Below are positions 7,520 through 35,740 of a stretch of DNA of 64,000 bases, piece after piece. The notes under the pieces are model-generated. The model was not told where the DNA came from and made no database searches. It was given only the letters and a program-made list of their open reading frames with translations. The stretch is from Martelella sp. AD-3 (GTDB taxonomy: Bacteria; Pseudomonadota; Alphaproteobacteria; Rhizobiales; Rhizobiaceae): positions 2,294,001 through 2,358,000 of the forward strand of contig NZ_CP014275.1 in assembly GCF_001578105.1 (NCBI RefSeq), written 5' to 3'. The translations under genes and the position numbers were made by a program. Position 1 is the stretch's first letter, and the number at the start of each line of letters is the position of its first letter.

Positions 7520-8656
7520 TCATAGCAAACTCATCTGTGTATTCCCTCCCCTGTCTGAGCATTCGCCCAGCGAAGAAAGCGTGACCCCGAGGAGGCGAAT
7601 TCCTTTCTGGGTAGGAAACAACTCAGCAAGCAACGTGCCGGCGATCTCGGCGATCTCATCTGCGTTTCGCACGTTCTGACGGACCGTCCGGCTCCGCGTG
7701 ATCTGCTGGAAGTCCGCATATTTCACCTTCAGCGTCACAGTCCGCCCACTGATCTGCTTGTTCTCAGCATGGCGCCATACCTTCTCGGCAAGCGGGATCA
7801 ACTCCGCCTGCGCCGCCTCCAGATCGAATATATCGGCCGCAAACGTGTCTTCCGCGCCGATCGATTTGCGCGGCCGATCGGGCTGAACAGGCCGCTCGTC
7901 GATCCCCCTCGAGATTCGATAATACCAGCTCCCCGACTTGCCGAAGTTGTCACGCAGGAAGGCGAGCGATTTGTCGCGCAGATCTGCGCCGGTCACGATC
8001 CCGAGCCGCTGCATCTTCTCTGCCGTCGCCGGCCCAACGCCGTGGAATTTCTTGACGGCGAGGTCAGCGACAAATGCCGGACCCATCTTCGGTGTGATCA
8101 CGGCCTGGCCGTTCGGCTTGTTGAGGTCACTCGCCATCTTTGCGAGGAACTTGCAGTAGGATATCCCGGCAGACGCATTGAGACCGGTTACATCCTTGAT
8201 ACGGGCGCGAATGATCGTCGCGATTTCGGTTGCAAACGCGATACCCTGCTTGTTCTCGGTCACATCAAGATAGGCCTCATCGAGCGAAAGCGGTTCGATC
8301 AGGTCTGTATGCTCAGCGAATATCTGGTGGATCTGCGCCGAGACCAATCGGTAGACGTCAAACCGTGGTTTCACGAACACCAGGTCGGGACACCGTCGTT
8401 TAGCGGTCACTGATGGGAGCGCGGACCTTACTCCAAAAGCTCGGGCCTCGTAGCTTGCCGCGGCAACGACACCTCTGGCCGCAGAGCCTCCGACAGCTAC
8501 CGGCTTGCCGCGCAGTTCGGGATTGTCGCGCTGCTCGACTGAGGCGTAAAAGGCATCCATGTCGACATGGATGATCTTGCGGATGGCTGGAGCGGCATCA
8601 TCCGTTTCGACCTCATGGTCTCTTTCAAATGTAGTCAGTTCATCCGGCGCGGCCAT
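7520..8656 (-). CDS. dinB: DNA polymerase IV (Y family)
   Basis: The 378-residue product carries both catalytic carboxylate motifs of Y-family polymerases: HVDMDAFYASVEQ at about residues 30-42 and PLSLDEAYLDVT about 100 residues later. It also has the KFLAKMASDLNKPNG finger/palm motif, a helix-hairpin-helix (FHGVGPATAEKMQRLGI) and a little-finger domain. It performs error-prone bypass of damaged template bases. A GAGAAG ribosome binding site precedes the ATG. It is the third gene of a run with the UvrD-like helicase and the SRAP protein (gap 30 bases), and probably shares their SOS control. It lacks a clear QLxLF-type clamp-binding end. Confidence 0.95.
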   Translation of the reverse strand: MAAPDELTTFERDHEVETDDAAPAIRKIIHVDMDAFYASVEQRDNPELRGKPVAVGGSAARGVVAAASYEARAFGVRSALPSVTAKRRCPDLVFVKPRFDVYRLVSAQIHQIFAEHTDLIEPLSLDEAYLDVTENKQGIAFATEIATIIRARIKDVTGLNASAGISYCKFLAKMASDLNKPNGQAVITPKMGPAFVADLAVKKFHGVGPATAEKMQRLGIVTGADLRDKSLAFLRDNFGKSGSWYYRISRGIDERPVQPDRPRKSIGAEDTFAADIFDLEAAQAELIPLAEKVWRHAENKQISGRTVTLKVKYADFQQITRSRTVRQNVRNADEIAEIAGTLLAELFPTQKGIRLLGVTLSSLGECSDRGGNTQMSLL

Positions 8657-8686
8657 GACTTCTCAAGCGCGTAACACGCGATGACG

Positions 8687-9349
8687 TTATTCGTCTTCGG
8701 GGTTTTCAGGAGGGGCGACGAGGACAAGCATGTTGCCGGGCAGTGGTCGCTGAAGGTGTTTTACATCGGTCCACTCACCGGTGAGCCAGAGATCGACCTC
8801 TTCCGGCGTCGTCAGGATCGCCGGCATTGCTTTTTCATGAATGGGTTTGACGATCTCATTCGGTGTTGTGGTCAGAAACCCGAACAGTTCATATTCCTGT
8901 TCGCCATCGCGGACCTTCCGCACGCCCTTCCAGGGCGTCCAGAAACTGGCGAAGAACATCAATGGCCGATCTGCGTTCTGCGCAAACCAGGCATTGGGCA
9001 CGCGCCCGCCCTCCACCTTGCTCGCAGGGTCAGGCTCCGCAAATGAAGTAAACGGCACGACACAGCGGCTTGTCGGCCCGAGCCAGCGCCGCCAATGCGG
9101 AGACCCGACATTGCGGATATTGGTGACCCCGCGATCGGCCTTGCCTTTGACGAAGGCCGGCGGCGTCGGCATGCCCCAGGTGGCACTAACGATTTCCCGT
9201 TTGCCATCGCCATCAACGCGAACGATCGGCGCCAGCGTGTTGGGATAGACATTGAGCGATGGTTCGTTCCATCCGGCCTTGTCGCTCATCGCCTTCGTAA
9301 ACTCGACGACGGCATCCCGTGTCGTCGTCAGATTATAGAGATTGCACAA
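8687..9349 (-). CDS. SRAP-domain protein (YedK/HMCES-type abasic site DNA-protein crosslinker)
   Basis: The 220-residue product starts MCNLYNL, which puts the catalytic cysteine at position 2 after Met removal, as in all SRAP proteins. Later landmarks are ATWGMPTP, RCVVPFTSFAEPD and the end of the fold with IHEKAMPAILTTPEEVDLWL, which holds the active-site histidine and glutamate region. Family members form a covalent thiazolidine bond with abasic sites in single-stranded DNA and protect them during replication. The gene lies 15 bases after the helicase and 30 before dinB, which supports a role in damage tolerance. Confidence 0.93.
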   Translation of the reverse strand: MCNLYNLTTTRDAVVEFTKAMSDKAGWNEPSLNVYPNTLAPIVRVDGDGKREIVSATWGMPTPPAFVKGKADRGVTNIRNVGSPHWRRWLGPTSRCVVPFTSFAEPDPASKVEGGRVPNAWFAQNADRPLMFFASFWTPWKGVRKVRDGEQEYELFGFLTTTPNEIVKPIHEKAMPAILTTPEEVDLWLTGEWTDVKHLQRPLPGNMLVLVAPPENPEDE

Positions 9350-9364
9350 ATCCTCGTCTCCCCC

Positions 9365-11434
9365 TCAGCGCCACATACCGCGCATCCGCGCGCCGACATC
9401 AAGCCGAACCTGCCGCGGAGCGGCGTTGTCCTGTTGACCCGGCTTTGCGACCGGCCATGTCCTGTTCTCAAAATGCTGCAGCAACATAGCGGGAATGAAT
9501 CGGGTCCGCGAGGCATAGACATGCCCGTCGCCGGTCGAGGACTGTCCGTGCGTGAAGAAGCGCTGCGGCACGACGAGGTTCAGGCTGTCCCGCGCTCGCG
9601 TCATCGCCACGTAAAGCAAACGCCGCTCTTCCTCGATATCGTCGGTCGTGCCGACGCCGAGATCGGAGGGAATGCAGCCGTCGACCGCATTGAGCATAAA
9701 GACCGACCGCCATTCCTGCCCCTTGGCCGAATGGATGGTCGAAAGGATCAGATAGTCCTCATCAAGCAGCGGCACACCGGCCTGGCCGGAGGTGGCGTCC
9801 GGTGGATCGAGCGTCAGCTCGGTCAGGAACCGCTCCCGCGACGGATAGCCAGCGGCAATATCCTCAAGCTGCAGAAGATCGGCGCGGCGCATCTCGAAGT
9901 CTTCATGGATGCGTTCCAGATAGGGCTCATACCATGCCCGGATCCGGCCGATCTCGGCGGGCCACCCCATGTTTGCTTGCCGGAGATCCGTTACCAACGA
10001 CACGAGACCCGGCCAGTCGGCCACCGCTCGCGAGGGCGCCGGCAGGGCCGCCAGTGTCTCAACCGGATCAGCGATTTCCGCAAGCGCATCCAGCGCATTT
10101 TGCGCCGAGACCGGGCCGACACCTGGCAAGAGCTGCATCAGCCGGAAGCCCGCCACGCGATCGCGCATGTTTTGGGCAAACCGGAGGGCTGCCAGCATGT
10201 CCTTCACATGGGCGGAATCGAGGAATTTCAGGCCGCCGAACTTCACGAATGGAATATTGCGGCGGGTGAGCTCGACCTCCAGCGGTCCGCTGTGATGGCT
10301 TGCTCGAAACAGCACGGCCTGGTCCTTCAGACGCATGCCGCCCTCGCGATTGTCGAGGACCTCGTCGGCAATGAACCGCGCCTGATCACCCTCGTCGCGA
10401 ACCGTCACCAGCCGGGGCTTTTCGGTTGAGGCGCGGTCGGTCCAGAGATCCTTGGTGTAGCGCTCATGGGCTAGACCGATGACGCCGTTGGCAGCGGCGA
10501 GGATCGGCTGCGTCGAGCGGTAATTGCGATCGAGCGTGATCACGTCGGCCTTCGGCGAGAATTCATTCGGGAAGTCAAGGATGTTGCGAACCGTGGCTGC
10601 CCGGAACGAATAGATCGATTGGGCGTCGTCACCGACAACGGTCAGGCCCCACCCGCCGAGCTTGAGCGCCATCAGGATCGAGGATTGCAGGCGGTTGGTA
10701 TCCTGATATTCGTCGACCAGGACATGGTCCCAGCGTCCGCCGATCTCATTCGCGAGCACCGGATCGCTCATGGTCTGCGCCCAGTAGAGCAGCAGATCAT
10801 CGTAATCGAGGACGTTCTGGATCTGCTTGGCCTCGACATAGGCCGCAAACAATTCCTTCAGTTCCTGTTCCCAGGCGGCACACCATGGAAAGTTTGCCCT
10901 CAGGATTTCCGAGAGCGGCGCCTCGGCATTGACCGTGCGCGAATAGATCGAAAGACAGGTGCCCTTGGCCGGAAACCGGTTTTCTGTCTTGGAGAAGCCA
11001 AGGTCATGGCGGGCGAGGTTCATCAGGTCGGCCGAATCCTCGCGGTCATGGATGGTGAACTGCGGATCGAGACCGAGCTCGATCGCATATTCGCGCAACA
11101 GCCGGGCGCCGATACCGTGGAACGTGCCGGACCAGGCAAGCCCGTCCGCCATGATCCCGGCCCTGTCGCCAAGCGCCTTCGCGCAGATCCGCTCGACGCG
11201 CTTTCCCATTTCGGCTGCGGCACGGCGGGAAAAGGTCATCAGCAGGATCCTGCGCGGATCGGTTCCGGAGATGACGAGCTGCGCCACGCGATGGGCAAGC
11301 GTATTGGTCTTTCCGGATCCCGCGCCCGCAATGATCAGCAGCGGTCCGCCGATGGCGCCATCAGGCAAATCCGTGCCATGCAGAACCGCGGCCCGCTGGT
11401 TGTCGTTCAATTTTTCGAGATGCGCCGCGCTCAT
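9365..11434 (-). CDS. UvrD/PcrA-type superfamily 1 DNA helicase
   Basis: I place the start at 11434 (MSAAHLEKLN), which has a GAGG site 8-10 bases upstream; the frame is open 34 codons further but without a ribosome binding site. The 689-residue product has the SF1A motifs in order: a Q-motif region (NDNQRAAVLH), Walker A (GAGSGKT), motif Ia (LMTFSRRAA), motif II (VDEYQDTN), motif III (VVGDDAQSIYSFR), motif IV (YRSTQPIL), motif V (STIHSAKGQEW) and motif VI (LLYVAMTRARDSL). It is a 3' to 5' DNA helicase or translocase. It is first in a helicase-SRAP-dinB cassette behind an SOS box, so it is likely a damage-induced repair helicase additional to the housekeeping UvrD. Confidence 0.93.
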   Translation of the reverse strand: MSAAHLEKLNDNQRAAVLHGTDLPDGAIGGPLLIIAGAGSGKTNTLAHRVAQLVISGTDPRRILLMTFSRRAAAEMGKRVERICAKALGDRAGIMADGLAWSGTFHGIGARLLREYAIELGLDPQFTIHDREDSADLMNLARHDLGFSKTENRFPAKGTCLSIYSRTVNAEAPLSEILRANFPWCAAWEQELKELFAAYVEAKQIQNVLDYDDLLLYWAQTMSDPVLANEIGGRWDHVLVDEYQDTNRLQSSILMALKLGGWGLTVVGDDAQSIYSFRAATVRNILDFPNEFSPKADVITLDRNYRSTQPILAAANGVIGLAHERYTKDLWTDRASTEKPRLVTVRDEGDQARFIADEVLDNREGGMRLKDQAVLFRASHHSGPLEVELTRRNIPFVKFGGLKFLDSAHVKDMLAALRFAQNMRDRVAGFRLMQLLPGVGPVSAQNALDALAEIADPVETLAALPAPSRAVADWPGLVSLVTDLRQANMGWPAEIGRIRAWYEPYLERIHEDFEMRRADLLQLEDIAAGYPSRERFLTELTLDPPDATSGQAGVPLLDEDYLILSTIHSAKGQEWRSVFMLNAVDGCIPSDLGVGTTDDIEEERRLLYVAMTRARDSLNLVVPQRFFTHGQSSTGDGHVYASRTRFIPAMLLQHFENRTWPVAKPGQQDNAAPRQVRLDVGARMRGMWR

Positions 11435-11550
11435 ACCGTTCTGCCTCAAGCCCTTGTGATTCAACGATGCACGCCTTGCGCACCGGTGTTCTGTCTCGGT
11501 CGCCGTCCACAGGACCCGCCAATGAGGCCGATTCACTCAAAACCGGAAAA

Positions 11551-11565
11551 GAACAAATAAGGAAC
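11551..11565 (-). promoter_or_regulatory. LexA (SOS) box upstream of the helicase-SRAP-dinB cassette
   Basis: Read on the minus strand, the site is GTTC CTTATTT GTTC. It fits exactly the GTTC-N7-GTTC direct repeat bound by LexA in alphaproteobacteria. It lies 117 bases before the helicase start, in the only intergenic gap upstream of three damage-related genes. Confidence 0.8.
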
Positions 11566-11736
11566 ATATCGGAGAATTCCGCTGTTGCAAAGTCCTGAAG
11601 GAGACCGTCCGACATCATGCCGAGGAACGCCGCCAGTCCCGCCATCGCAGAGCTGTCATTCAGCGAGACACCGGGACCCCACATGCGTTAAATCTTTCAA
11701 AAACTTAGCGCGCTGATCGGCGTCGAACGCCGATGC

Positions 11737-11768
11737 CGAATTACACACGCCTCCGCGAGGGAGGCGAC
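11737..11768 (-). repeat. Degenerate terminal CRISPR repeat (trailer end)
   Basis: The last 22 plus-strand bases match the consensus, but the ten bases 11737-11746 do not. In transcript orientation the 3' handle (ATCGAAAC side) is therefore lost. Decay of the leader-distal repeat is the normal sign of the oldest end of an array and confirms the direction deduced from the cas genes. Confidence 0.9.
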
Positions 11769-12260
11769 CGGCTATCCGCTTCGGAACTACTATGACTTCA
11801 CTGTTTCGATCCACGCCTCCGCGAGGGAGGCGACTAGCAGCGCCGGCCGTTGCCGATGCCGCTGTAACCTGTTTCGATCCACGCCTCCGCGAGGGAGGCG
11901 ACGCCCATACCGGAACCTTGGCGCGCGCTTCCTCGAGGTTTCGATCCACGCCTCCGCGAGGGAGGCGACCAACAAGACCATGACGAGGGTTGCCTATTTC
12001 GGGCCGTTTCGATCCACGCCTCCGCGAGGGAGGCGACGCCAGACGTGGCGCAACTACCGCCGCAACTTAAGGTTTCGATCCACGCCTCCGCGAGGGAGGC
12101 GACCGCGTAGGGCTATCTGTGCCCGCTGCTTGCGGGTGTTTCGATCCACGCCTCCGCGAGGGAGGCGACGCGCCGGAAAGACTGCCGACCGGCACACCGA
12201 AGAGGTTTCGATCCACGCCTCCGCGAGGGAGGCGACTCACCACCGCTCAGCATCAGGAAG

Positions 12261-13618
12261 GATCGTGTCCCATGACGTGGTGTAGCTGGATTTCATAGCC
12301 ATCGGTGATTTCCGGTAGGGTCGGGTTGCTTATGACCAACCTGAAGGACACCACCGATGACCAACGACATGATGAACCTGCGCTCACTCGTTGAGAAGAG
12401 CGCCGACGCCGATTTGCTCCGTGAGATGATCGGCTTTGCCGCCGAGAAGTTGATGGCGCTGGAAGTCGGGGCGAAGACCGGCGCGGGTTACGGCGAGAAG
12501 AATGGCTTTCGCCTTGCCCAGCGCAACGGCTATCGCGACCGAGATTGGGAAACGCGTGCAGGAACCGTCGAGCTGCGCATTCCGAAGCTTCGCACCGGCA
12601 GCTATTTCCCGAGCTTCCTCGAACCGCGCCGGATGGCGGAAAAGGCGCTGACGGCGGTGATCCAGGAAGCCTATATCCAGGGCGTCTCCACCCGATCCGT
12701 CGACGATCTGGTGAAGGCCATGGGCATGTCTGGCATCTCCAAGAGCCAGGTCTCTCGGCTCTGCGAGGAGATCGACGACAAGGTGAAGGCCTTTCTTGAC
12801 AGGCCCATCGAAGGCGAATGGCCATACCTCTGGATTGATGCCACCTATCTGAAGGTCCGACGCGGCGGGCGCATCGTCTCAGTCGCCGTCATCATCGCGG
12901 TGGGCGTGAACACCGACGGCCGGCGCGAAGTGCTCGGCATGGAGATCGGAACATCAGAAGCCGAGCCGGTCTGGACGGAGTTCCTTCGCAACCTGACCAG
13001 GCGCGGGCTGCGGGGCGTCAAGCTCGTCGTCTCCGATGCCCATGAGGGGATCAAGGCCGCTGTGTCGAAGGTGCTTTGCGCCACCTGGCAGCGCTGCAGG
13101 GTCCACTTCATGAGAAACGCATTGGCTCATGCCGGAAAGAGCGGGCGGCGCGTCGTCTCCGCCTTCATCGCCACCGCGTTTGCACAGGACACGCCGGAGG
13201 CGGCGAGCACCCAGTGGCGCAATGTCGCTGACCAGATCAGGCCGAAGGTGCCGAAACTCGCCACGCTCATGGACAACGCCGAACAGGACGTGCTCGCCTA
13301 CATGACCTTTCCCAGGCAGCACTGGGCAAAGCTTCATTCGACAAATCCGATCGAGCGTCTCAACGGCGAGATCAAGCGACGCACTGAAGTCGTTGGCATC
13401 TTCCCCAACGACGACGCCATCGTCAGACTGGTCGGTGCCTTGCTTCTGGAGCAAAACGACGAATGGGCCGTCCAGAGGTCCCGCTACATGACACTTGAGA
13501 CAATCGCCACGATGAGCGATGATCCGCTCATCAGCCTGCCAGCAGCAAGCTGACACTCATCCGCCCCTCTGGGATGAGCCGTGGTCGTCTAAGCTACACC
13601 ACGTCATGGGACACGATC
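12261..13618 (+). mobile_element. IS256-family insertion sequence, copy 1, inside a CRISPR spacer
   Basis: The element is 1,358 bases. Its ends are perfect 27-base inverted repeats (12261-12287 and 13592-13618, outermost bases GATCGTGTCCCATGACGTGG). It is flanked by an exact 8-base target duplication, TCAGGAAG, at 12253-12260 and 13619-13626. Removing the element and one duplicate restores a 34-base spacer between the repeats at 12205 and 13637, which proves insertion into a pre-existing spacer. The intact transposase, perfect ends and perfect duplication indicate recent arrival. Copy 2 lies at 31644-33001 in the same orientation. Confidence 0.97.
12357..13553 (+). CDS. IS256-family transposase (copy 1)
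   Basis: The 398-residue protein is full length for IS256 transposases. The DDE catalytic acids can be assigned as Asp161 ([11 protein letters not shown]), Asp227 (LVVSDAHEG) and Glu338 ([17 protein letters not shown]). The C/H region between the second and third acid ([10 protein letters not shown]) is typical of the family. It cuts and joins the ends of its own element. It is transcribed against the CRISPR array. Its translation is identical to that of the second copy. Confidence 0.97.
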
Positions 13619-14932
13619 TCAGGAAGCGGCAGACTGGTTTCGATCCACGCCTCCGCGAGGGAGGCGACTAGCGCTGATCAGTCCGTCCAGGTGCTCGTAT
13701 TGTTTCGATCCACGCCTCCGCGAGGGAGGCGACAGGCGGATGACGCGACAGCCTCGCCCTTTGATCATGTTTCGATCCACGCCTCCGCGAGGGAGGCGAC
13801 CTGAGTGAGTGGGACATCACCGACTACCTCAAGACTGTTTCGATCCACGCCTCCGCGAGGGAGGCGACGAGGCGGTGCGGTCAACGGGTTTCGATGAGTT
13901 GTGTTTCGATCCACGCCTCCGCGAGGGAGGCGACTTCCGGTGAGGGTGGCGGTGGCGGTGGATACGCAGGTTTCGATCCACGCCTCCGCGAGGGAGGCGA
14001 CTTCTGCACGCGCTCGCCCTGGCGATAATCCGTCACCATGGTTTCGATCCACGCCTCCGCGAGGGAGGCGACCGTACATCGGGCCGCACTATTCGCCGTA
14101 CTCCAAGTTTCGATCCACGCCTCCGCGAGGGAGGCGACCCAGCCCGGCCGAAGAGCTCGTTGTTGTCGTCGAGTTTCGATCCACGCCTCCGCGAGGGAGG
14201 CGACCCTCGCGCAGGCGAAAGTGCCAGATTTTGACGAGGTTTCGATCCACGCCTCCGCGAGGGAGGCGACGAGGCCCTTTTGCGTAGTGTGCTATAGGTT
14301 TGGTGTTTCGATCCACGCCTCCGCGAGGGTGGCGACCTCAGGCGCTTTGCCTGTCTTTGCCGACGCTGAAGTTTCGATCCACGCCTCCGCGAGGGAGGCG
14401 ACCGACTCTTCCGCAGGCGCTCGCCGAAGGAGAAGAGTTTCGATCCACGCCTCCGCGAGGGAGGCGACGTCAACCTGATCGGCAAAGCGCTGCATCTCGG
14501 ATTGTTTCGATCCACGCCTCCGCGAGGGAGGCGACAATTGTTATTTCGCTAATGCCGGATCGGACGGCGTTTCGATCCACGCCTCCGCGAGGGAGGCGAC
14601 GTGGAAAAGCCGCCGCCATAGCGGTTGACGTTGGAGTTTCGATCCACGCCTCCGCGAGGGAGGCGACAGATTGCGACGACCATGAAACAGGCGCCGGACA
14701 AGTTTCGATCCACGCCTCCGCGAGGGAGGCGACGTGCAGGCGCGCTGTTCGGACTTGCGGTCGGCAAGGTTTCGATCCACGCCTCCGCGAGGGAGGCGAC
14801 CTGCCGTGGCATTCTCCGCAGCGACAACCACGCAGTTTCGATCCACGCCTCCGCGAGGGAGGCGACGCCACGGCCATGCGGATATCGGCGGTGATCTGCA
14901 GTTTCGATCCACGCCTCCGCGAGGGAGGCGAC

Positions 14933-15030
14933 CGGGGCTGCCTCGGCCACGGTACCAACAAAATTGTTTCGATCCACGCCTCCGCGAGGGAGGCGACCGG
15001 GGCTGCCTCGGCCACGGTACCAACAAAATT
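14933..15030 (-). repeat. Tandem duplication of one spacer with its repeat
   Basis: The 33-base spacer at 14933-14965 is repeated base for base at 14998-15030, separated by the repeat at 14966-14997. This is a 65-base spacer-repeat unit duplication, as produced by slippage or unequal recombination between repeats rather than by two independent acquisitions. Confidence 0.93.
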
Positions 15031-16127
15031 GTTTCGATCCACGCCTCCGCGAGGGAGGCGACCGCTACAACCTCGCCGCCTGAACATGCATCCAGTCGTT
15101 TCGATCCACGCCTCCGCGAGGGAGGCGACAGCTTGATGATGTTGCCGCTGGCGTCATAAAGCGCAGTTTCGATCCACGCCTCCGCGAGGGAGGCGACAAT
15201 CGGCAGTGGCTTGACAGTCTACTTTGCAGTCGTTTCGATCCACGCCTCCGCGAGGGAGGCGACGCGTCTCGGTGGCGTCCAGCCCCGACGCCTACGTGTT
15301 TCGATCCACGCCTCCGCGAGGGAGGCGACCAAACGTAAATGCTCCTGCCGTCAACCTTGATATGTTTCGATCCACGCCTCCGCGAGGGAGGCGACGGGCT
15401 TCGGCTAAATTTGTATCAACGTCAACTGGTTTCGATCCACGCCTCCGCGAGGGAGGCGACTGCCAGCTGCTGAATTTCATTCCGAGCTTTTCCTCGTTTC
15501 GATCCACGCCTCCGCGAGGGAGGCGACCTCCATCAATCAGCATATACCGATGCCGAGCATTGTTTCGATCCACGCCTCCGCGAGGGAGGCGACCGGAAAC
15601 GACATGGAGGAGTGACACGATGTTTGGACGTTTCGATCCACGCCTCCGCGAGGGAGGCGACGTGCGTGAAGCAATGGCCGCCGCCATCCGTGCAATGTTT
15701 CGATCCACGCCTCCGCGAGGGAGGCGACCTGAACGAGGTTCTTCGTCACTGCCGCGTAAGGGTGTTTCGATCCACGCCTCCGCGAGGGAGGCGACGCCAT
15801 GACGGGTAAGCAGTCAGCCATCGCAATTCGTTTCGATCCACGCCTCCGCGAGGGAGGCGACAGCTTGTCGAAGGGCCGAACGTTACCCAAATTGCGTTTC
15901 GATCCACGCCTCCGCGAGGGAGGCGACGGTCCCGCATCTCTATCGACAGTGCATTTTCCGAGTTTCGATCCACGCCTCCGCGAGGGAGGCGACCGCCTCG
16001 GCGCCCATGACGGAGTGCTGCGCGACGGTTTCGATCCACGCCTCCGCGAGGGAGGCGACATTAAAGTTGGAGATGCTGTCGCCAACATCATATGCGTTTC
16101 GATCCACGCCTCCGCGAGGGAGGCGAC

Positions 16128-16344
16128 TGGCTGACTATAAGGGCCTATTTAGACAGGGCAATGCAACCTGACATCGCGAACACGGACCGGCGCTGCAGAA
16201 TGACGATGTTCTTTTTCGAAGAATTTTCGGGAAAATAAACGATTTCAAAGAACTGACGGAAGTGCGAACCTCCCGGCATATTGCGGCACTCTTGTGGTTC
16301 GCGCCGATCTCCCCAAAACCTCGGCGCGGCGGACGTCAGGGATT
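16128..16344 (-). promoter_or_regulatory. CRISPR leader
   Basis: This 217-base gap lies between cas2 and the newest repeat. It is unusually rich in A and T in its middle (16205-16250). On the minus strand it holds TTGAAA at 16244-16249 followed 17 bases on by AATTCT, and a second candidate -10 (TATAGT) just before the first repeat. Leaders provide the array promoter and the sites that direct spacer integration. Which promoter is used cannot be told by reading. Confidence 0.8.
16241..16253 (-). promoter_or_regulatory. boxA-like antitermination motif in the CRISPR leader
   Basis: The minus strand reads GTTCTTTGAAATC about 115 bases before the first repeat. It resembles the boxA element (consensus near GCTCTTTAACA or TGCTCTTTGAAA) that recruits Nus factors to rRNA leaders, and boxA sites are known in some CRISPR leaders. 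The same bases include a possible -35 (TTGAAA), so a promoter role is the main alternative. Confidence 0.5.
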
Positions 16345-16635
16345 TCAGATCATCAGAGGTCCGTTAAGGTCGACCGCCGGTTTGGCGCCGACATGTTCAA
16401 CCCGCCTTTGCCAATTGGCGCCGAGATAATAATACCGCAAACTGTCCATCTCAGGCTTGATGATGCCTTCCAGCCGGGCCTTGAGCCTGGTCCACTGTGC
16501 CGGATCGACCTCGATCTCGAAGACAGAATATTGCACCCGCTGGCCGAAATCACGGCAGGCCTTGGCAACAGCGCGCAGCCGGGCAGCGCCATTTCCTTCG
16601 CTCACGCGCACATCGTAGGTTACCAGAACCAGCAT
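16345..16635 (-). CDS. cas2: CRISPR-associated endonuclease Cas2
   Basis: The 96-residue product starts MLVLVTYDV, the ferredoxin-fold strand that carries the conserved Asp8, and continues with [16 protein letters not shown], the second family signature. It is the standard length for type I-C Cas2. It bridges two Cas1 dimers in the spacer integration complex. It is the last cas gene, 9 bases after cas1, and the leader follows directly. Confidence 0.96.
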
Positions 16636-16644
16636 AACGTCTCC

Positions 16645-17682
16645 TCACTTCCAGAACCAGGGCGGATAGGCATCGAGATCGCCGCGAAGATGCCGCGCCA
16701 GCAATTGCGCCTGCAGATAGGGAACCAGCCCAACCGGCGCCTTTTCCCCCAGAAAGGGGTGTTCCCGCTCCACCTTCTTGCGCTCCTGCCAGGTGGCAAT
16801 CACGGTCTTGCGTGCCTCGTCGCTCATGACAACCGCGCCGCCATCGCGCACTTCGAAATCGGAGACACGCAACTGGCGCCGGTTGAACAGCGAAAGCGCC
16901 AACCGGTCGGCTAAAACCGGGCGCAGTTCCTCCATCAGGTCGAGCGCAAGACTTGGCCTTCCCGGCCGGTCGCGGTGCAGAAAGCCAACGGCCGGATCAA
17001 GACCGACCGCTTCCAAGGCTGAACGGCAGTCATGCACAAGAAGCGTATAAAGAAACGACAACAGCGCATTGACCGGATCAAGCGGCGGACGACGCGAGCG
17101 TCCACGCCAGCAGATTTCCGGGTCAGGCGCGCGGATCAGATGATCGAAGACGGAAAAATAGAGATTGGCCGCCTCCCCCTCAAGGCCGCGCAGTCCGTCC
17201 ACCGTGTCCTCGGAAAGCTCGGAGCGTCTGGCAATCCGCGCCAGCCTTGCGCCCGCGTCTTCCAGTGCAGCACGGGTTTCGGATGGATACTCGCTTCCGT
17301 AATCGCGCAACGACCGCATAAGCACCGCACGCTGGTTCGCCACCTTGCCGGTGACGATTGAGCGCACGATCTCCACGGGCTGGTCACTTGCCCGGTATTG
17401 CGCCCGGCGCAGCAGCACGTTGCCGCTGACAGGCCCCTCCAACCGCGCCTGGAACTTTCCGCTGCGCGTCAGAAAGGTGAGCGTGATGCCGGCATCCGCC
17501 AGCGCGCCCATCAGCGGCGGCGAACAATAGACCGCGCCGAAAACGACGACGCCGGAGAGCATATGCAGCGGCACGCGGCCACGCTCCGCGCCCTCGATCG
17601 CGGCCACCAGGTTTTCCCCGTCCTTGGAAAGCGCCACCCCTTCGGTCATGGCGTAAAATGTGTTCAGCAGCTTTTTCATCAC
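16645..17682 (-). CDS. cas1: CRISPR-associated integrase Cas1 (type I-C)
   Basis: The 345-residue product has the Cas1 metal ligands: Glu168 (GLEGEAANLYF), His236 (FLHRDRPGRPSL) and Asp248 (ALDLMEELRP). An N-terminal beta domain carries LHMLSGVVVFGA. It integrates new spacers at the leader-proximal repeat with Cas2, and Cas4 trims the substrate. The annotated start begins MMKK; the second Met is equally possible. The start overlaps the cas4 stop by four bases. The active site is intact, so the system should be able to acquire spacers. Confidence 0.97.
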   Translation of the reverse strand: MMKKLLNTFYAMTEGVALSKDGENLVAAIEGAERGRVPLHMLSGVVVFGAVYCSPPLMGALADAGITLTFLTRSGKFQARLEGPVSGNVLLRRAQYRASDQPVEIVRSIVTGKVANQRAVLMRSLRDYGSEYPSETRAALEDAGARLARIARRSELSEDTVDGLRGLEGEAANLYFSVFDHLIRAPDPEICWRGRSRRPPLDPVNALLSFLYTLLVHDCRSALEAVGLDPAVGFLHRDRPGRPSLALDLMEELRPVLADRLALSLFNRRQLRVSDFEVRDGGAVVMSDEARKTVIATWQERKKVEREHPFLGEKAPVGLVPYLQAQLLARHLRGDLDAYPPWFWK

Positions 17683-18368
17683 CCATCCCCACCTTCGGCC
17701 CCGCTTTCAGCGACAAGCGCCTCCACCTGCCGGCGGCGCCAGGCGCAGACCGGCCGGCCGAAAGCCTCCGGGCGACAGATTTCGATGAGCGAGCAGGCCC
17801 GGCAGCGCGAACGCCTGTCGGTCGGCGGTGGCGTCTCGCCTGAGGCAAGCATGCCGGCAAAGGCCGCAATCGTCTCTTCCGTCAGGGCACGCAAATCGGC
17901 GTCAAAGGGAACAGCGATACGGCGTTTTGTCTCGCCATAAAACAGTGCGCCCTCGGCAACCGGCATTCCAGTCATCTCCTCCAGGCAGAGCGCCTGAGCG
18001 CAAAGCTGCACCTCGTCGGCGCGGTGAAGCTTGGCCTTGCCGCGCTTGTATTCCACCGGAAAAGCGGTCTCGCGGCCATCGGGGGAGAGTTGAAATTCCA
18101 CCATATCGGCAATGCCCGAAATATTGAGCCGCCGACAGGCCACCGGCAGCGCCATCACCCGGCGGAGCCCCCTCGCCTTGCGCTTGCCGCCCTTGTCGGC
18201 TACCGCATGCAGCACATCGCCCTCCGCCGTGAACCGGTTATCCGCCCAGACCCGCTCCAGATGGATGAGGGCTGCCTGCCGAAGGCAATAAACGGCGTGC
18301 TGAAGCGCTGAAATGGGAATGGGCTCGCCCGCTCCCATGTCCGCGCCTGCCTCCACCGCCGCCGCCAT
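17679..18368 (-). CDS. cas4: CRISPR-associated exonuclease Cas4
   Basis: The 229-residue protein is a RecB-like nuclease. The catalytic residues can be read as Asp88 (SGIADMVEF), Glu106 and Lys108 (FPVEYKRGK). Four cysteines for an iron-sulphur cluster are in place: Cys28 (YCLRQA), Cys189, Cys192 and Cys198. Cas4 processes prespacer ends and fixes PAM orientation during acquisition. It begins three bases after the cas7 stop and overlaps cas1 by four bases. Confidence 0.95.
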   Translation of the reverse strand: MAAAVEAGADMGAGEPIPISALQHAVYCLRQAALIHLERVWADNRFTAEGDVLHAVADKGGKRKARGLRRVMALPVACRRLNISGIADMVEFQLSPDGRETAFPVEYKRGKAKLHRADEVQLCAQALCLEEMTGMPVAEGALFYGETKRRIAVPFDADLRALTEETIAAFAGMLASGETPPPTDRRSRCRACSLIEICRPEAFGRPVCAWRRRQVEALVAESGAEGGDG

Positions 18369-18371
18369 GGC

Positions 18372-19322
18372 TCAGAGTTTCTCGATGATCTCGACACCGT
18401 CCGGCAGATTGTCGCGGTCGATCTCGACGATGTAGTCGGCAAAAGCGCGCGCCGGTGGATAATTGTCCAGCCGCTCATCGACCGGTTTGAATTCACCGCC
18501 GATATTGCGGCCGATCCGCACCCGCTCGAACAAGGCGTGGGCCGGGGCATTGCCAAGCGCGCTTTCGTGCCTGAACACAATTAGCTTGCGGGTTGCCATC
18601 TCGCCGCGCGCGGCCGAACGGTCATGCTCGAACATGTTGGCGATCGCTTCGAACAGGAGTTCCAGATCGCTTTCGGAAAAGCCGGTGCGTTCGGCGAATT
18701 TGGCGGAGATGAAGCCATGCGAGACATATAGCCCGTAGGGGACGATGTACTTGCGCCCCATGGTGCGATTGTCGGTACGGTCCGCGCTGTCATCGCCTTC
18801 CGCCTTCTGCTTCAGTTCCGCAGCATTGGTGGCCGCCATGCGGGTGATGGAAATCTCAAGCGGCATGATCGGTTCGACGGACGCGGCAAAGCTCATCTGC
18901 ACCGGCCCCTTGACCTGGCCGCAGTTGATACCGGTCGACATCACCGCGCCGAAGGTTCGCACGTCGAAAAAATTGGCGCACATGAAGCCTGTGAGCACCT
19001 TGGCTTCAGCATCATCCTTCGGGTTCAGCTTGGCCGCCTTGTCTACCTTGGGATCATCCGTGTAGATCGACTTGTAAGCCTCGCGGTGCTTCTCATTCAG
19101 GATCGAGCCTTCCTCGACATAGATGTGAAAGCCGTCCTCGCCTTGCCGAGCAAGATCGACATAATTGCGGATCTTGCGCTTGAGCGAAACATCGGTGACG
19201 AGGCCCTTGTTGGTTTCGGGATCAAGTCGCGGCAGGTTTCCGGCATCGGGGTCACCATTGGGATTGCCGTTTTTCACCTCGAAGATCACCGAAAAATCGT
19301 AGCGATTTTTGATAATAGTCAT
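18372..19322 (-). CDS. cas7: Type I-C Cascade backbone protein Cas7 (Csd2)
   Basis: The 316-residue product opens with YDFSVIFEVKNGNPNGDPDAGNLPR in pieces, the hallmark of Cas7/Csd2, and continues with TDVSLKRKIRNYV. Later come RTFGAVMSTG and the QVKGPVQMSFA motif typical of I-C and I-B backbones. Several copies would coat the crRNA spacer. The start overlaps cas8c by four bases. Nothing is missing compared with the family length. Confidence 0.96.
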   Translation of the reverse strand: MTIIKNRYDFSVIFEVKNGNPNGDPDAGNLPRLDPETNKGLVTDVSLKRKIRNYVDLARQGEDGFHIYVEEGSILNEKHREAYKSIYTDDPKVDKAAKLNPKDDAEAKVLTGFMCANFFDVRTFGAVMSTGINCGQVKGPVQMSFAASVEPIMPLEISITRMAATNAAELKQKAEGDDSADRTDNRTMGRKYIVPYGLYVSHGFISAKFAERTGFSESDLELLFEAIANMFEHDRSAARGEMATRKLIVFRHESALGNAPAHALFERVRIGRNIGGEFKPVDERLDNYPPARAFADYIVEIDRDNLPDGVEIIEKL

Positions 19323-21097
19323 TCTTCTACTCCCCCCTGGATCGTGGCTTCATCGGACTTGGGTTTGAAAAAATTGCTGTGCTGGTGGTGGTAACCAAGC
19401 CCGAACAGCGCTTGCTCCTGCGCACGCAGCGAGGAAGGATAGGGATCATCGTTCGGGTTCATCCTGTCCATGATCTCATCCTGAAGCTTCTTCAGATTAT
19501 ATTCGCGGCCCGGGCTGGTCTTGCGCACCTTGGCAAGGTGATTGGCCGAGTTGTTTTCCAGCACGGCGAAAACCTTGCGCGGCTGGGCCGAGGCGGAACC
19601 GTAGAACTTGTCCCTGATCGTCGCGTTGACCCTGCCGCCAAGTGCGGCGCGCTGCATTTCTTCGTAGACGGCGAACAGCCGCCCGAGGAGATAACCCCTG
19701 TCCCCATTCTCCGGATCAAGCGCCACCGGAACCTCCTTCATGTTGAAATTGCGGATGAGAAGCGCCTTCAGAATGCCAACGCGTAGCGCGTTTACATTGC
19801 CATCGGCGCGAATGCGCGTGAGAACCGCCGCCATCAGAGAAAGCGGATAATGCGTCCCGGACAGGATGGCGCGCATCCATTCGCCGGCAAGATTGGGCTG
19901 CACATTCTCGCGCTTGCCCAGAACCGCGGTTTCCTGCAGATAACGCCACAACGGCGCAAATCCGTCTTTCGGCGGTGGTTCGACACGCACGTCGGCAAGA
20001 TAGCGCTGATAGTTCCCGGTCAGAGCGCCAAATGTGTCGGAGAAGAAGAACCGCACAGAAAGCCGCGCGGCGTTCGGCGAGAGCCCTAGCACGTAAAACC
20101 GAACCCCCTCGACGAGATCAGGTTTGATCGACGCAAGGCTCTGCCCCTCGCGAATGCGCTTCAGCGTGACCTCGATCTTGCGGGTTTCCGCCTTGTCATC
20201 GTCAGCCGTTCCGCCGGTTTCTTCACCCGGAGGCTCCAGAAACATAGAGAACAGGCTTTCCGCCTCTTCAGCACGTTTCATATTCGCGGAATCGGCCCAA
20301 AACACCGTGGAGGCATCGCCGACCTGCACCCGGTGTCCGCTGTCGCGTTCGAGGAAGCGGTTGAGGACAGTGGTGTATTTGAACGCCGCATTTTCGGAAA
20401 CGGGGGCGTTGGCACCTTGTTCATGGCCATAAGAGGTGAAGGCGTCGAGATTAAAGGAAACGAGGGCCGCGCCGGAAGATTGTGCGCCCCACACTCCCTT
20501 GATTGAGGGGTGAAGCCGGGTAGGCGGCATTTTATCGCCCGTTACCAAGCAAATCTGCTCACCGCCATCGCCCGCTGTCGAGAGCCGGGCCCACAGCGCC
20601 TTTGCCGCCGGCCGGTCATGGATATAGATATGGGCGAGCCGATCGCTCTCCAGCGCAAAAATGACGTTCTGGTCCTTCATGTCCTCCGGCCAGACCGGCT
20701 CGCCAAAACGTTCGGGCGTCCAGGATTGCAGAAAAGACAGCAATGCTCTGAGCCCGGCATCATCAGTGCCGCCAATGTCGGTCAGATGCCGTTCGACAAA
20801 AGCTGCGTGCTCATCGGCCGTGCGCTTGCCCTCGCCGGCGGTCACGCCCAGAACATAAGATGTCTTGTCCCAGAGGAAATTGGGCGCGACGCCCGCTGTC
20901 CGCTTCACCGGTTGCGGCACCAGCATCTGCCGGGCGCGCATCCTCTTGCCCTCGCCTTCCCTGAGATCGCTGACACTGGCAACGCTGCCATCCTCGTTCA
21001 GCGAAACCACAAACCCGATTTTTTCCGACGAATAGCCGATCGGCGGCGCGTCCGACAGTCGGTCGTAGGCGTTCACAAGCGAAGCGAGAATGGTCAT
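19319..21097 (-). CDS. cas8c: Type I-C Cascade large subunit Cas8c (Csd1)
   Basis: The 592-residue product has the Csd1 start (MTILASLVNAYDRL, then PPIGYSSEKIGFVVSLNEDG) and the conserved middle FNLDAFTSYGHEQGANAPVSENAAFKYTTVLN (about residues 205-240). The C terminus has the helical bundle that serves as the small subunit in I-C (the internal Cas11c region). Cas8c reads the PAM and recruits Cas3. The family is often translated with an internal start for Cas11; I did not identify that start with certainty. It overlaps both neighbours by four bases. Confidence 0.95.
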   Translation of the reverse strand: MTILASLVNAYDRLSDAPPIGYSSEKIGFVVSLNEDGSVASVSDLREGEGKRMRARQMLVPQPVKRTAGVAPNFLWDKTSYVLGVTAGEGKRTADEHAAFVERHLTDIGGTDDAGLRALLSFLQSWTPERFGEPVWPEDMKDQNVIFALESDRLAHIYIHDRPAAKALWARLSTAGDGGEQICLVTGDKMPPTRLHPSIKGVWGAQSSGAALVSFNLDAFTSYGHEQGANAPVSENAAFKYTTVLNRFLERDSGHRVQVGDASTVFWADSANMKRAEEAESLFSMFLEPPGEETGGTADDDKAETRKIEVTLKRIREGQSLASIKPDLVEGVRFYVLGLSPNAARLSVRFFFSDTFGALTGNYQRYLADVRVEPPPKDGFAPLWRYLQETAVLGKRENVQPNLAGEWMRAILSGTHYPLSLMAAVLTRIRADGNVNALRVGILKALLIRNFNMKEVPVALDPENGDRGYLLGRLFAVYEEMQRAALGGRVNATIRDKFYGSASAQPRKVFAVLENNSANHLAKVRKTSPGREYNLKKLQDEIMDRMNPNDDPYPSSLRAQEQALFGLGYHHQHSNFFKPKSDEATIQGGVEE

Positions 21098-21816
21098 CGC
21101 CTGACCTCCGGAGAATTCGGCGGCGGCACCTTGACCACGCCGTCTTCCAGCAAGGCCCGGAAGAACAGCGACGGGCGACCTTCCGCGCCATGATCGATAT
21201 CGTAGAGCACGAAGCCCAGATCGCGCGCCGCGCCGAAACCGAGGCTGGCCGTGCGGTGTTCGGCGGCGGCTTGCGGCGTCCGATCATCCGGTTCGATCAG
21301 TTCAAACGCGGCAGAGAACTCGCGTGTCCCCAGGCAGGGCTGGTTGAAACACTGGCCGCGCCGCGCACGGCGGTTGAACGTGTCCAGATGCTTGCCTTCA
21401 TTGTCGTCCGGCCCTGCCTTTTCCGTCATTTCGAAACGGGCTTCGATGACATAGGCGGGTCTTACCAGCACGGTTGCCGCGCGCTGCTGGCGATCCTCGT
21501 CGACCAGGAGGTTGAGCCCTTCCAGATCTCCGCGCTTCATCGCCGATTTGATCTTGCCGGCCGGCGCCTTGTGGCCGACCTCATTGCGCCGGATCGACTG
21601 GAAACGGATCGGCTCCAGCACGTGAATGGCGTCGATGACCCAGCGGATCGCCGGCTTCCAGTGGATCGCCTCCAGGATGCCGCGCGCCGCCGATGGCGTC
21701 ATCACGTCATAGGAAACGCGCTCGACCTTCATCTCGGGTCGCGTAAAACAGGCATAGTCGCCCCAGACCTTCAGCCTAATTCCGTATGCCAATCGCCCCT
21801 CCTTGGTTCGGTCCAC
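21094..21816 (-). CDS. cas5c: Type I-C Cas5c (Cas5d), crRNA-processing subunit
   Basis: The 240-residue product begins with IRLKVWGDYACFTRPEMKVERVSY in pieces, then MTPSAARGILEAIHW near residue 40, the signature of Cas5 of subtype I-C. In this subtype Cas5 replaces Cas6 and cuts the pre-crRNA, consistent with no cas6 gene here. A later segment RRARRGQCFNQPCLGTREF matches the conserved C-terminal half. It overlaps cas8c by four bases and follows cas3 with 15 bases between. Confidence 0.95.
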   Translation of the reverse strand: MDRTKEGRLAYGIRLKVWGDYACFTRPEMKVERVSYDVMTPSAARGILEAIHWKPAIRWVIDAIHVLEPIRFQSIRRNEVGHKAPAGKIKSAMKRGDLEGLNLLVDEDRQQRAATVLVRPAYVIEARFEMTEKAGPDDNEGKHLDTFNRRARRGQCFNQPCLGTREFSAAFELIEPDDRTPQAAAEHRTASLGFGAARDLGFVLYDIDHGAEGRPSLFFRALLEDGVVKVPPPNSPEVRR

Positions 21817-21831
21817 CGCGAAAAAACGGCA

Positions 21832-24096
21832 TCAAAAAATCATATTCTCCGCAGCCAGATATTCCGCCTCCTCCCACAACAGACCCAGTTCAGGCCCGTA
21901 GAGCGAAGCCGTTTGCAGCAACATGAACTGATCCCCACGCAGGTCCGGCCGCTCGAAACGCGCATGACCATTGGCCACAAGCAGCGCCCGCGCCTTCGGC
22001 GGCACCTGAACAATGTAAGATTGCAGCACTCTGGCGAGTCGGCCAGAGGAGATGTTCTCGATGCCGAGATCCGCGACAGCCTGACGCGCCTTGTCGTCAT
22101 AGGGGATGACCACCGGTTCCATGCCGCTCTCGATTATGCGGAATTCCTCCGCCACTGACCTGTAAGCGAAATCCGTGCCCGAAAGGGTGACCGTGAACCG
22201 GTCGAGAATGCCCTTGCCGTCCAGTCCCTTTTCGCCCTTTCGCCAGTAGACCTCGCGGAAATAGTCCTCGATCGCCGGCAGCGACAGAAGATCGTCATGC
22301 TTGCCGATCATCCGTTTCATGTCGCCGATCATGCCCTTGATCTCGGTTGGCGGCGCGTAATCCGCTGGATCGAATACCGTGACGAAACTCTCTTCACGCC
22401 TCCGCCCGCCCTCGCGGTTGCAACGGCCGGCCGCCTGCACGATCTGGTCCAGCCCAGCCTCTGCGCGCAGGACGCACGGGAAATCGATATCGACGCCCGC
22501 CTCCACCAGAGAGGTCGCGATCACCCGGCATGGGCCGCCCGCCTTCAGCCGCGCCTTCACACGACCGAGGATTTCGCGCCGGTGCACCGCGCAGAGCCGC
22601 GTCGACAGATGAACGAGACCGGAAAGTCGCGCCGCCTCGGCGTCCCTGAAGAGTTCGAGCGCATGGCGGCGGCTGTTGACAATCACCAGCGCCTGTTCGT
22701 TCTCTTCCAGCGCCGCAATCAGCGCGTCATTGTCCATCGTCCCGCCATGACGGATCGTCGCGCGCGCCAGCCTGCCCGCCAGCCCATTCGGATCGGGCGC
22801 AAGTTCGCGGCCTTCAAGTGCCAGCCCCTGCTGAAAATCCGGACGCGCGCCCAGCGCCGGCTGCGTCGCCGTGCACAGGATGATGGTGCAGCCATACTGT
22901 TCCACCAACGCCTCCAGCATCCGCATGACCGGAAAGAGATAGTGCCGCGGCAAGGTCTGAGCCTCATCCAGAATGATGATGCTGCCGGCGATATTGTGCA
23001 GCTTGCGCGCCCGCGATGTCCGCGACGCAAACAGGCTCTCGAACAATTGCACATTGGTGGTAACGACGATCGGCGCCGCCCAGTCCTCCATCGCCAGTTT
23101 GAGCTTGTCGTGTTGCTGGCGTTCCTCCCTACCACGCCTGCTTTCCCGATCTTCATCGATCGCCGAGTGATGTTCGAGGATAAGACTGTCGCCCTCCTGC
23201 TCCAGCACCTGGCGGAAAATGGCCGCCGTCTGCTCGATGATCGAGGTGAAGGGGATGGCATAGATGATCCGCCGATGGCCGTGTATTCTGGCGTGGTCAA
23301 GCGCAAAACCGAGCGAAGCCAGTGTCTTGCCGCCGCCGGTCGGCACGGTGAGCGTGAACAGCCCCGGCTTTTCGCCCGCCTTGCCACGGACATGGCTCAG
23401 GACCTCCCGCCGTAGGCGGTTGAGGTCACCGTCCGCAGAGAACCCTGCCATATGGCGCTCATATCGCGCCGAGAGGTCCGGCAAAAACGAGGCGAGTAAA
23501 GGCCACTGCCGATCAGCAACCCTTCCCTCAAGCCTGGAATAGAAGGCCTCGGTATCCCTGAAATCGGCATCGACAAGACAGGAAAAAACCATCCGACCGA
23601 AGACAGAGAGGGCAAAGCCTGCATTCCGGCCGGAGGGGATTTTTCGCAAAATGTCCATCGGCGCCAGATCACGTGGCGTTTCGCCCAATTCGTCTCGCCA
23701 GACAGGGTCAATCTCCGGCGAGTTGTCTATGCGCCAGTTATAACAGGCATTGGTTTCGTTCAGGCGGTCGGGAAGCCCAGCATGATGACCGAGAATGGCA
23801 TAGGCGATGATCTCAGCCATCTGCCTGTCCACGCCCTCGGCAACCTCACGAAGCAGTTTCGCACCAGCAGTCGAATGATCGATCCGCAGGTTTTCACCGG
23901 CAAGTCGTCTCTGGAAGATCGGATTATACTTGCCAAGATCATGAAACAGGCCAGCCGCGAAACAGGCACGCCCTATCCCCAGCGGACCACCCATTTCGCT
24001 CGCCAGCGACGCAACGGCGAATAGGTGGTCCGAAAGCGCCTGCCAGTCGGATTGAACCTTGCCCGGCGTAGAATGGGCAAAATAGGCCTTGGACAT
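21832..24096 (-). CDS. cas3: CRISPR-associated helicase-nuclease Cas3 (HD N-terminal)
   Basis: I place the start at 24096 (MSKAYFAHST), with a GGGAGGGGGAA site just upstream; the frame extends 14 codons further. The 754-residue protein has an HD nuclease domain (His8, then His52-Asp53 in FHDLGKYNP) followed by an SF2 helicase with Walker A GGGKT near 254-258, the DEAQ box at 377-380 and motif VI QAAGRCNREG. It unwinds and degrades target DNA after Cascade binding. It is the first gene of the cas operon, and the promoter should lie in the A/T-rich stretch 24140-24200. All catalytic motifs are intact. Confidence 0.96.
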   Translation of the reverse strand: MSKAYFAHSTPGKVQSDWQALSDHLFAVASLASEMGGPLGIGRACFAAGLFHDLGKYNPIFQRRLAGENLRIDHSTAGAKLLREVAEGVDRQMAEIIAYAILGHHAGLPDRLNETNACYNWRIDNSPEIDPVWRDELGETPRDLAPMDILRKIPSGRNAGFALSVFGRMVFSCLVDADFRDTEAFYSRLEGRVADRQWPLLASFLPDLSARYERHMAGFSADGDLNRLRREVLSHVRGKAGEKPGLFTLTVPTGGGKTLASLGFALDHARIHGHRRIIYAIPFTSIIEQTAAIFRQVLEQEGDSLILEHHSAIDEDRESRRGREERQQHDKLKLAMEDWAAPIVVTTNVQLFESLFASRTSRARKLHNIAGSIIILDEAQTLPRHYLFPVMRMLEALVEQYGCTIILCTATQPALGARPDFQQGLALEGRELAPDPNGLAGRLARATIRHGGTMDNDALIAALEENEQALVIVNSRRHALELFRDAEAARLSGLVHLSTRLCAVHRREILGRVKARLKAGGPCRVIATSLVEAGVDIDFPCVLRAEAGLDQIVQAAGRCNREGGRRREESFVTVFDPADYAPPTEIKGMIGDMKRMIGKHDDLLSLPAIEDYFREVYWRKGEKGLDGKGILDRFTVTLSGTDFAYRSVAEEFRIIESGMEPVVIPYDDKARQAVADLGIENISSGRLARVLQSYIVQVPPKARALLVANGHARFERPDLRGDQFMLLQTASLYGPELGLLWEEAEYLAAENMIF

Positions 24097-24317
24097 GCAC
24101 GTTCCCCCTCCCGAGGAGGTCATTCGACCTTCCGTCAATGAACGCTATCGCCAATTTCCTAAAATGTTGAACTAAAAATACCCCTTCTTTAGTTTAGCCC
24201 CGACTTTAGGCTTCGAATTTAGCCTCAGACTGGGCAACCCGCGCGGTGCCAAATACCCGCAGGGCAAGGGACTGTAGGAAGGACCCGCCGTTTGCCTGCC
24301 CCCTGCCCCAACGACAA
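24097..24317 (-). promoter_or_regulatory. Putative cas operon promoter region
   Basis: The gap between cas3 and the prophage-like operon has an A/T-rich segment at 24150-24240, which also carries the unit TTTAGCC twice. I cannot assign promoter boxes with confidence. It is the only place where a dedicated cas promoter could sit. Confidence 0.45.
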
Positions 24318-24436: not shown

Positions 24437-25078
24437 TCACACCTTGCCGACCACAGCAAGCGGTACGACCATCGGCGTCAGCCGGCCGAACAGATCAACC
24501 TCGACCACGACATCTCCCTTGCCCTTGCTGTTGGCCGTGACCACCGTGCCGACCTGTCCCTCGAAGATCCCGTCGCCGATCATCACCCGGTCGCCGGCTT
24601 CGACCATGACATCGCTGTGGCGCTCATAGTCGAAGTCGCCATTGTCGGCCTTGCGCATGATCTGAGCCACCTTGTCGTCTGAGACAGGGTAAGGCGTCTC
24701 CCAGCCTCCGAGAATGGCGATGACATGATCAAGACTCAGCAGGCCTCGAAGCGCCCTCGCCGTGCTGACAAAGCGGACAAGCACATAGCCGGTCATCAGC
24801 ACCTCGTCCCTGACCGGCAGCATCCGCCCGCGCCTGCGCCTCTGCTTGCCCTTGCGCATCGGCACAAGCGCCTCGGCGCCAATGTCCTTCAGCACCGTCT
24901 CCACCTGTTGCTCATGGCCCGGATGAACCGCTGCCACATACCATGTCGCCTGGTCATGGGCTTCCGTCAGGGCATGCTGCTCATCGAGCCGCATGCGCCT
25001 GAGGGCTGCATCCCGTTCCAGACGCCGAAGGCTGTCCGTCCCGAGTTCGGCCTCAAGGCTCGTCATATCCCGTGTCAT
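24437..25078 (-). CDS. NusG-family transcription elongation/antitermination protein
   Basis: The 213-residue protein has a NusG N-terminal (NGN) domain at about residues 46-130 (TWYVAAVHPGHEQQVETVL, GAEALVPMRKGK, TGYVLVRF) and a KOW motif near 160-180 (GDRVMIGDGIFEGQVGTVV). The first 45 residues are an extra helical, charged segment. NusG paralogues ride on RNA polymerase and many suppress termination. It is the last gene of the early operon and starts inside the stop codon of the gene before it (ATGA overlap). In phages this is the place for a regulator of late genes; here the cas operon follows 340 bases downstream on the same strand. Confidence 0.85.
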   Translation of the reverse strand: MTRDMTSLEAELGTDSLRRLERDAALRRMRLDEQHALTEAHDQATWYVAAVHPGHEQQVETVLKDIGAEALVPMRKGKQRRRRGRMLPVRDEVLMTGYVLVRFVSTARALRGLLSLDHVIAILGGWETPYPVSDDKVAQIMRKADNGDFDYERHSDVMVEAGDRVMIGDGIFEGQVGTVVTANSKGKGDVVVEVDLFGRLTPMVVPLAVVGKV

Positions 25079-29389: not shown

Positions 29390-29461
29390 CCAGCCTCTCC
29401 GTTCCGTTCGGGATGCCCGCCCGTCTGCCAAAACAAGCGGCGGGACACCCGAGCGGAACGA

Positions 29462-35664: not shown

Positions 35665-35740
<76 letters not shown>

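Follow-up and report, generated by a model that had tools for sequence, protein, structure and literature searches.

When an insertion sequence enters a CRISPR array, is a single spacer lost, or is the whole older part of the array lost with it? The question is raised by a locus of Martelella sp. AD-3, within a window of 64,000 nucleotides (the whole stretch of DNA analysed; contig NZ_CP014275.1, positions 2,294,001 to 2,358,000), to which the coordinates below refer unless they carry a contig or locus prefix. The explanation that we consider very probable is an ordinary, recent transposition into a type I-C array carried on an island in a tRNA-Lys gene: in one event, an IS256-family element would have entered the eighth spacer from the array's old end, and the spacers distal to it would since have been expressed at a lower level.

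An IS256-family element within a spacer

The array, the element and the cas operon are arranged as follows.

11737-16127, minus strand: type I-C CRISPR array, 46 repeats and 45 spacer slots
11769-12204, minus strand: seven intact leader-distal spacers with their repeats, beyond the element from the leader
12237-12260, minus strand: distal piece of the split spacer, 24 nt, including one copy of the target duplication
12253-12260 (left) and 13619-13626 (right): 8-bp target-site duplication TCAGGAAG
12261-13618, plus strand: IS256-family insertion sequence, 1,358 bp, with perfect 27-bp terminal inverted repeats
12357-13553, plus strand (antisense to the array): transposase, 398 aa (PF00872, E 4.2e-123; NF033543, IS256 family)
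13627-13636, minus strand: leader-side piece of the split spacer, 10 nt
13669-16095, minus strand: 37 leader-proximal spacers with their repeats
16128-16344, minus strand: leader between the array and cas2, with the boxA-like sequence GTTCTTTGAAAT at about 16242-16253 on the minus strand
16345-24138, minus strand: type I-C cas operon, with Pfam matches for all seven genes
16345-16635, minus strand: cas2
16645-17682, minus strand: cas1
17679-18368, minus strand: cas4
18372-19322, minus strand: cas7
19319-21097, minus strand: cas8c
21094-21816, minus strand: cas5c
21832-24138, minus strand: cas3
31644-33001, plus strand (same orientation as the first): second copy of the element, 100% identical, with its own duplication CGCAAAAA

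Forty-four of the 46 repeats (32 nt) are exact, one has a single mismatch (14305), and the terminal repeat at 11737 has 8 mismatches; the 45 repeat matches found in the Martelella genome at up to 3 mismatches all lie within this array. Two spacers, 14933-14965 and 14998-15030, are identical (33 nt), one repeat-spacer unit having been duplicated. Since the cas genes are on the minus strand, the array is read leftward from the leader, and the seven leader-distal spacers are presumably the oldest. The NCBIfam type I-C models for cas1, cas5, cas7 and cas8 all score above their cut-offs, and the operon is complete, with its reading frames intact; it may be capable of interference. Directly upstream of cas3 and in the same direction, a gene at 24437-25078 (minus strand) encodes a NusG-like protein (PHROG 6386, transcription antiterminator, E 3.5e-43; every NusG, RfaH and LoaP model scored under its NCBIfam cut-off) that could help to transcribe the cas operon and the array. 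This gene was rejected as a conserved partner of cas3: it has no match (E 1e-5) in the 51 loci of the cas7 search described below or in locus L089, the stretches of the second survey starting near cas8c and ending short of the region past cas3.

The interrupted spacer slot spans 1,400 bases between perfect repeats at 12205-12236 and 13637-13668. The arms of the element's inverted repeat (12261-12287 and 13592-13618, 27 nt each) are 100% complementary, and a perfect inverted pair of this length together with an 8-bp target duplication is not a product of chance. When the element and one copy of the duplication are taken out, 24 + 10 = 34 nt of parent spacer are left, a normal length in an array whose remaining 44 spacers measure 33-39 nt. 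The initial annotation, which had described an IS256 element lying exactly inside a CRISPR spacer, with perfect 27-base ends and an 8-base duplication, a restorable 34-base spacer between two perfect repeats, and seven old spacers parted from the leader by a gene transcribed against the array, is borne out in each of these particulars, the leader and the cas genes lying on the right. What has been lost as a unit is the single 34-nt spacer.

IS256 elements are about 1.3 kb long, have terminal inverted repeats of some 20-30 bp and duplicate 8 or 9 bp of target. The Martelella element fits the family on its transposase (NF033543, E 4.5e-104, 348 bits against a cut-off of 150), on its size and inverted repeats, and on its target duplication. 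Seven full-length copies are present in the genome, besides an 86% copy and fragments: the two copies in the window are 100% identical, a copy at G000:C1:603134 has 4 differences, and the other four are 95% identical. The 8-bp duplication is exact in four of the seven; in two others 7 of 8 bases agree, and one has none. The copy without a target duplication is the one with 4 differences (L003 1501-2858, G000:C1:603134-604491), perhaps as a result of recombination between copies. No common target motif was seen among the insertion sites of the full-length copies. The identity of the window copies suggests that the element may be active in transposition.

The initial annotation also saw in the array a dated record of transposition. 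The insertion must indeed postdate the spacer that it interrupts, but this gives a lower bound and not a date. Recency is suggested by the identity of the element to its second copy, which is evidence from the element and not from the order of the array; identical copies and seven perfect distal repeats (the eighth, at the terminus, is degenerate) are in keeping with a recent event but do not date it. The uninterrupted spacer was looked for in relatives and did not turn up: the 24-nt piece, with up to 1 mismatch allowed, is absent from all 12 other genomes of the genus that were searched, so the age and direction of the insertion are read from the duplication alone.

An integrative island and the predicted loss of the immune system

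The CRISPR-Cas system and both copies of the element sit on a 47.3-kb island in a tRNA-Lys gene, the right end of which is marked by three features.

34351-35574, plus strand: integrase gene of the island (PHROG 1 integrase, E 2.1e-25)
35663-35709: 47-bp attachment-site repeat in tRNA-Lys(CTT), with an exact second copy at G000:C1:2282354-2282400
35665-35740, minus strand: tRNA-Lys(CTT), adjoining the integrase gene

The second copy of the repeat, 47.3 kb leftward and outside the window, reproduces a portion of the tRNA gene that takes in the 3' end; no tRNA gene was found at that position. The integrase scores 21.4 bits against the Pfam model Phage_integrase, under the cut-off of 27.1, and has no NCBIfam match. 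In two relatives, G005 and G010, the flanks of the island are contiguous around a single tRNA-Lys (flank DNA identity 94-96% in G005, and 81-82% in G010 with one 59-bp piece at 93%), which places the CRISPR-Cas system and both copies of the element on an island absent from this site in both relatives. A match to cas8c was found in three of 13 genomes of the genus, one of them a fragment of 40 residues. Because an integrative island carries the whole system, the history recorded in the spacers may be that of another host, and claims about dating are limited to that extent.

Between the cas operon and the tRNA gene (25075-35574), phage-like control genes for a replication initiation protein, a DNA methyltransferase, a CII-like activator, an S24-type repressor and the integrase suggest that a prophage remnant makes up the right part of the island. 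On the other side of the island, next to the old end of the array, 7520-11536 (minus strand) encodes an impB/mucB-type polymerase, an SRAP protein and a UvrD-like helicase, possibly a DNA-repair group. In G002, two copies of the tRNA end lie 43.8 kb apart in the same gene neighbourhood, and in G004 the left-flank gene and the tRNA are about 26 kb apart; the tRNA-Lys at 35665-35740 appears to be a hot spot for insertion.

The two identical direct copies of the element, 19.4 kb apart, bracket the leader, the cas operon and 37 spacers. Such an arrangement might be expected of a compound transposon whose ends had brought in the CRISPR-Cas operon, but this is hardly credible here and was rejected: the two copies share no outer target duplication, each having its own (TCAGGAAG and CGCAAAAA), which fits two separate insertions and not one compound transposition, and the left copy has array to either side of it. 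Misassembly is just as improbable. Identical copies 19 kb apart are the type of repeat that confuses short reads, but placing a repeated element into the array by error would not create an 8-bp duplication within a parent spacer of normal length, and the genome is assembled in 3 contigs, the main one of 4.55 Mb. It is also very unlikely that the insertion was selected for destroying a harmful spacer, such as a self-targeting one or one directed against a useful plasmid. For Sulfolobus, the account in PMC4390879 has ISC1359 inactivating a spacer that matched a plasmid under selection, but the 24-nt piece of the Martelella spacer has no second match in its own genome at up to 3 mismatches, so that no self-target came to light with this piece, and has no exact match in viral contigs; a plasmid target that had since been lost would leave no trace. 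An ordinary transposition remains the preferred account of how the element arrived.

Nine phage records matched the proximal segment (13619-16127), eight of them weakly (E 0.2-0.8) and the ninth, an unannotated record of 4,756 bp, in seven pieces (E 1e-4) that are taken to be matches to repeats. This unannotated record was the only phage match of the distal segment (11769-12260), which also drew 13 plasmid records, mostly as long gapped matches to what appear to be other CRISPR arrays. One plasmid, LC623930, shares a single identical stretch of 25 nt (E 0.04) with window positions 11954-11978, of which 16 nt belong to a repeat and 9 nt to a spacer. Against the loci of relatives (loci of the Martelella genome itself excluded) and the window, the spacers matched nothing convincing except the duplicated pair; the best matches had full identity over 17 nt, and one matched 21 of 23 nt at window positions 9848-9870.

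Recombination between the two direct copies could delete 19,383 bp, including the leader, the cas operon and 37 spacers, in a single step. Deletions of the CRISPR region at IS256 and IS431 have been documented in Staphylococcus epidermidis RP62a (PMC3784566), and in Martelella the one-step loss of an immune system becomes a concrete prediction that can be tested by PCR.

Expression of the spacers beyond the element

Transcripts of the array that enter the element would be antisense to the transposase gene. Read in the sense of the crRNA, the split slot keeps spacer positions 1-18 on its leader side, 10 nt from the spacer piece and 8 nt from the duplication, and element sequence takes up the remainder; since only these positions adjoin the leader-side repeat, a working crRNA from the split slot is unlikely. 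The seven spacers beyond it are intact.

Full silencing, which the initial annotation had judged probable and which would have transcription from the leader end in the element, is quite possible, though we hold it with some reserve. Foreign sequence of 1,358 bp with an opposing gene separates the leader from the old spacers, a promoter scan found no promoter-like site in the element directed into the distal spacers, and they could be silenced by collision with transcription of the transposase or by Rho termination, the antisense RNA being untranslated over 1.36 kb. Against this, the element contains no convincing intrinsic terminator on the transcribed strand of the array: a scan of 11500-16800 found 3 sites, compared with a mean of 4.6 (sd 2.2) in shuffled sequence, and the sole terminator-like site of the element on that strand, 13472-13458, is weak, with a stem of 5 pairs. 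The hairpin at the right end of the element was tried as a terminator and dismissed, as its fold of 101 nt is no better than those of shuffles (z -0.22). A boxA-like motif in the leader also speaks against silencing, as does an array of Flavobacterium psychrophilum split by an IS256 element, both halves of which are described as transcribed, though from promoters in the repeats (PMC10309648). With nothing in the element that clearly ends leftward transcription, the seven old spacers would be expressed less but not necessarily abolished; the weak terminator, the boxA-like motif and the F. psychrophilum precedent make reduced expression at least as plausible as silence.

The leader sequence GTTCTTTGAAAT is similar to GTTCTTTAAAA, the boxA in a CRISPR leader of Legionella. 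In synthetic arrays of Legionella, as reported in PMC7862264, boxA raised pre-crRNA about 10-fold along the array, and the finding of natural boxA at CRISPR arrays is credited to Stringer et al. (as cited in PMC7862264). Among 38 leaders, drawn from the window and from the 37 loci, of 45 matched by cas2, whose identity exceeds 55%, the motif G(C/T)TCTTTGAAAT was matched at 10 or more of 12 positions in 27, and in 24 of these 27 it lies 126-128 bases ahead of the first repeat. At the same threshold, 13 of 1,900 shuffles matched, the shuffles preserving base composition only. As the consensus was derived from the same alignment in which it was counted, these figures demonstrate conservation and not function; the role of the motif may instead lie in the acquisition of spacers.

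The Martelella locus thus offers a clean natural case, one array with one leader split by one antisense gene, in which read-through of a CRISPR array and the survival of its old memory can be tested.

Elements at other arrays and known systems

Two surveys of relatives bear on whether such insertions recur. The first, a search with cas7, gave 51 loci, with an array detected in 42; the second examined, of the 23 cas8c carriers in a sample of 394 Rhizobiaceae genomes, the 22 other than Martelella sp. AD-3, with an array in 19 of the 22, and 8 of these 22 loci, L028 and L036 among them, had already appeared in the first survey. A tblastn search with the transposase against the loci of both surveys matched three distinct loci. 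In the type I-C array of Metarhizobium album (L036), 31 nt separate the last repeat seen from the end of a related element (DNA 81% identical across 180 bases, protein 97% identical across the final 39 aa), which, as spacers there are 32-36 nt long, lies in a spacer; the contig ends within the element. In Rhizobium sp. G21 (L028), a truncated relative begins between 2 (tblastn) and about 39 (blastn) bases past the last repeat. In Tropicimonas sediminicola (L042), a diverged remnant lies about 130 bases beyond a degenerate last repeat. In L028 (13197-14431), six of the seven leader-proximal repeats have one mismatch to the repeat of the window, and 11 of the 12 others have none. A gap in the array of one relative turned out to be masked sequence and was left out of account. 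A direct search for the repeat followed within 5-35 nt by the end of the element, a pattern that misses other variants of either, matched two of the 394 Rhizobiaceae genomes (two of the 23 cas8c carriers), namely Martelella sp. AD-3 itself and G188; the reversed control matched none of the 394.

The transposase is antisense to the array in all four cases (the window, L036, L028 and L042). From this it might be supposed that IS256-family elements repeatedly enter the leader-distal spacers of alphaproteobacterial type I-C arrays in antisense orientation, where transcription of the array would repress the transposase and little immunity would be lost; if so, elements landing at the old end of an array would be tolerated. 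We regard this as unlikely. That all four share an orientation has a two-sided probability of 1 in 8 by chance; one of them is in the pre-selected window, and two of the four elements lie past the array and not within a spacer. The numbers hint at recurrence without demonstrating preference, and arrays are dispensable DNA. Eight copies placed at random would give about 0.005 insertions in the array at 11737-16127, and over many genomes random insertions into arrays must occur.

Mobile elements in CRISPR arrays are indeed already known. One parallel is F. psychrophilum CN46, in which an IS256-family element also halves the array and a target duplication is reported; that array is of type II-C with promoters in its repeats, to which its authors credit the transcription of both parts, whereas the Martelella array is of type I-C and known from its sequence (PMC10309648). 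In Haloquadratum walsbyi HBSQ001, the mobile element HqIRS37 likewise lies inside a spacer whose ancestral form is readable, but it is a MITE, and its array is a remnant that lacks cas genes, whereas Martelella has a full element and a complete cas operon (PMC3119063). Sulfolobus ISC1359 similarly inactivates one spacer, in an experimental setting with a known plasmid target, whereas the Martelella insertion is natural; the review that describes it calls insertions into spacers very rare in the order of Sulfolobus (PMC4390879). In Mycobacterium tuberculosis, IS6110 also splits one array in two, with later deletions following, but it belongs to the IS3 family, makes a 3-bp duplication and struck a repeat, whereas a spacer was struck in Martelella (PMC7820667). 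In CRISPR escapers of S. epidermidis RP62a, IS256 disables CRISPR, and the locus is deleted when IS copies recombine, which the Martelella pair would also permit; there the insertions are in cas/csm genes and the deletions were observed, whereas Martelella has a spacer insertion and a deletion that is only possible (PMC3784566). In the open-licence literature on CRISPR in Martelella, the accessible text of PMC9720073 refers to CRISPR in its methods and references only and does not describe this insertion. Set beside these systems, the Martelella case is a tidy, true and useful example of a mobile element in a CRISPR array.
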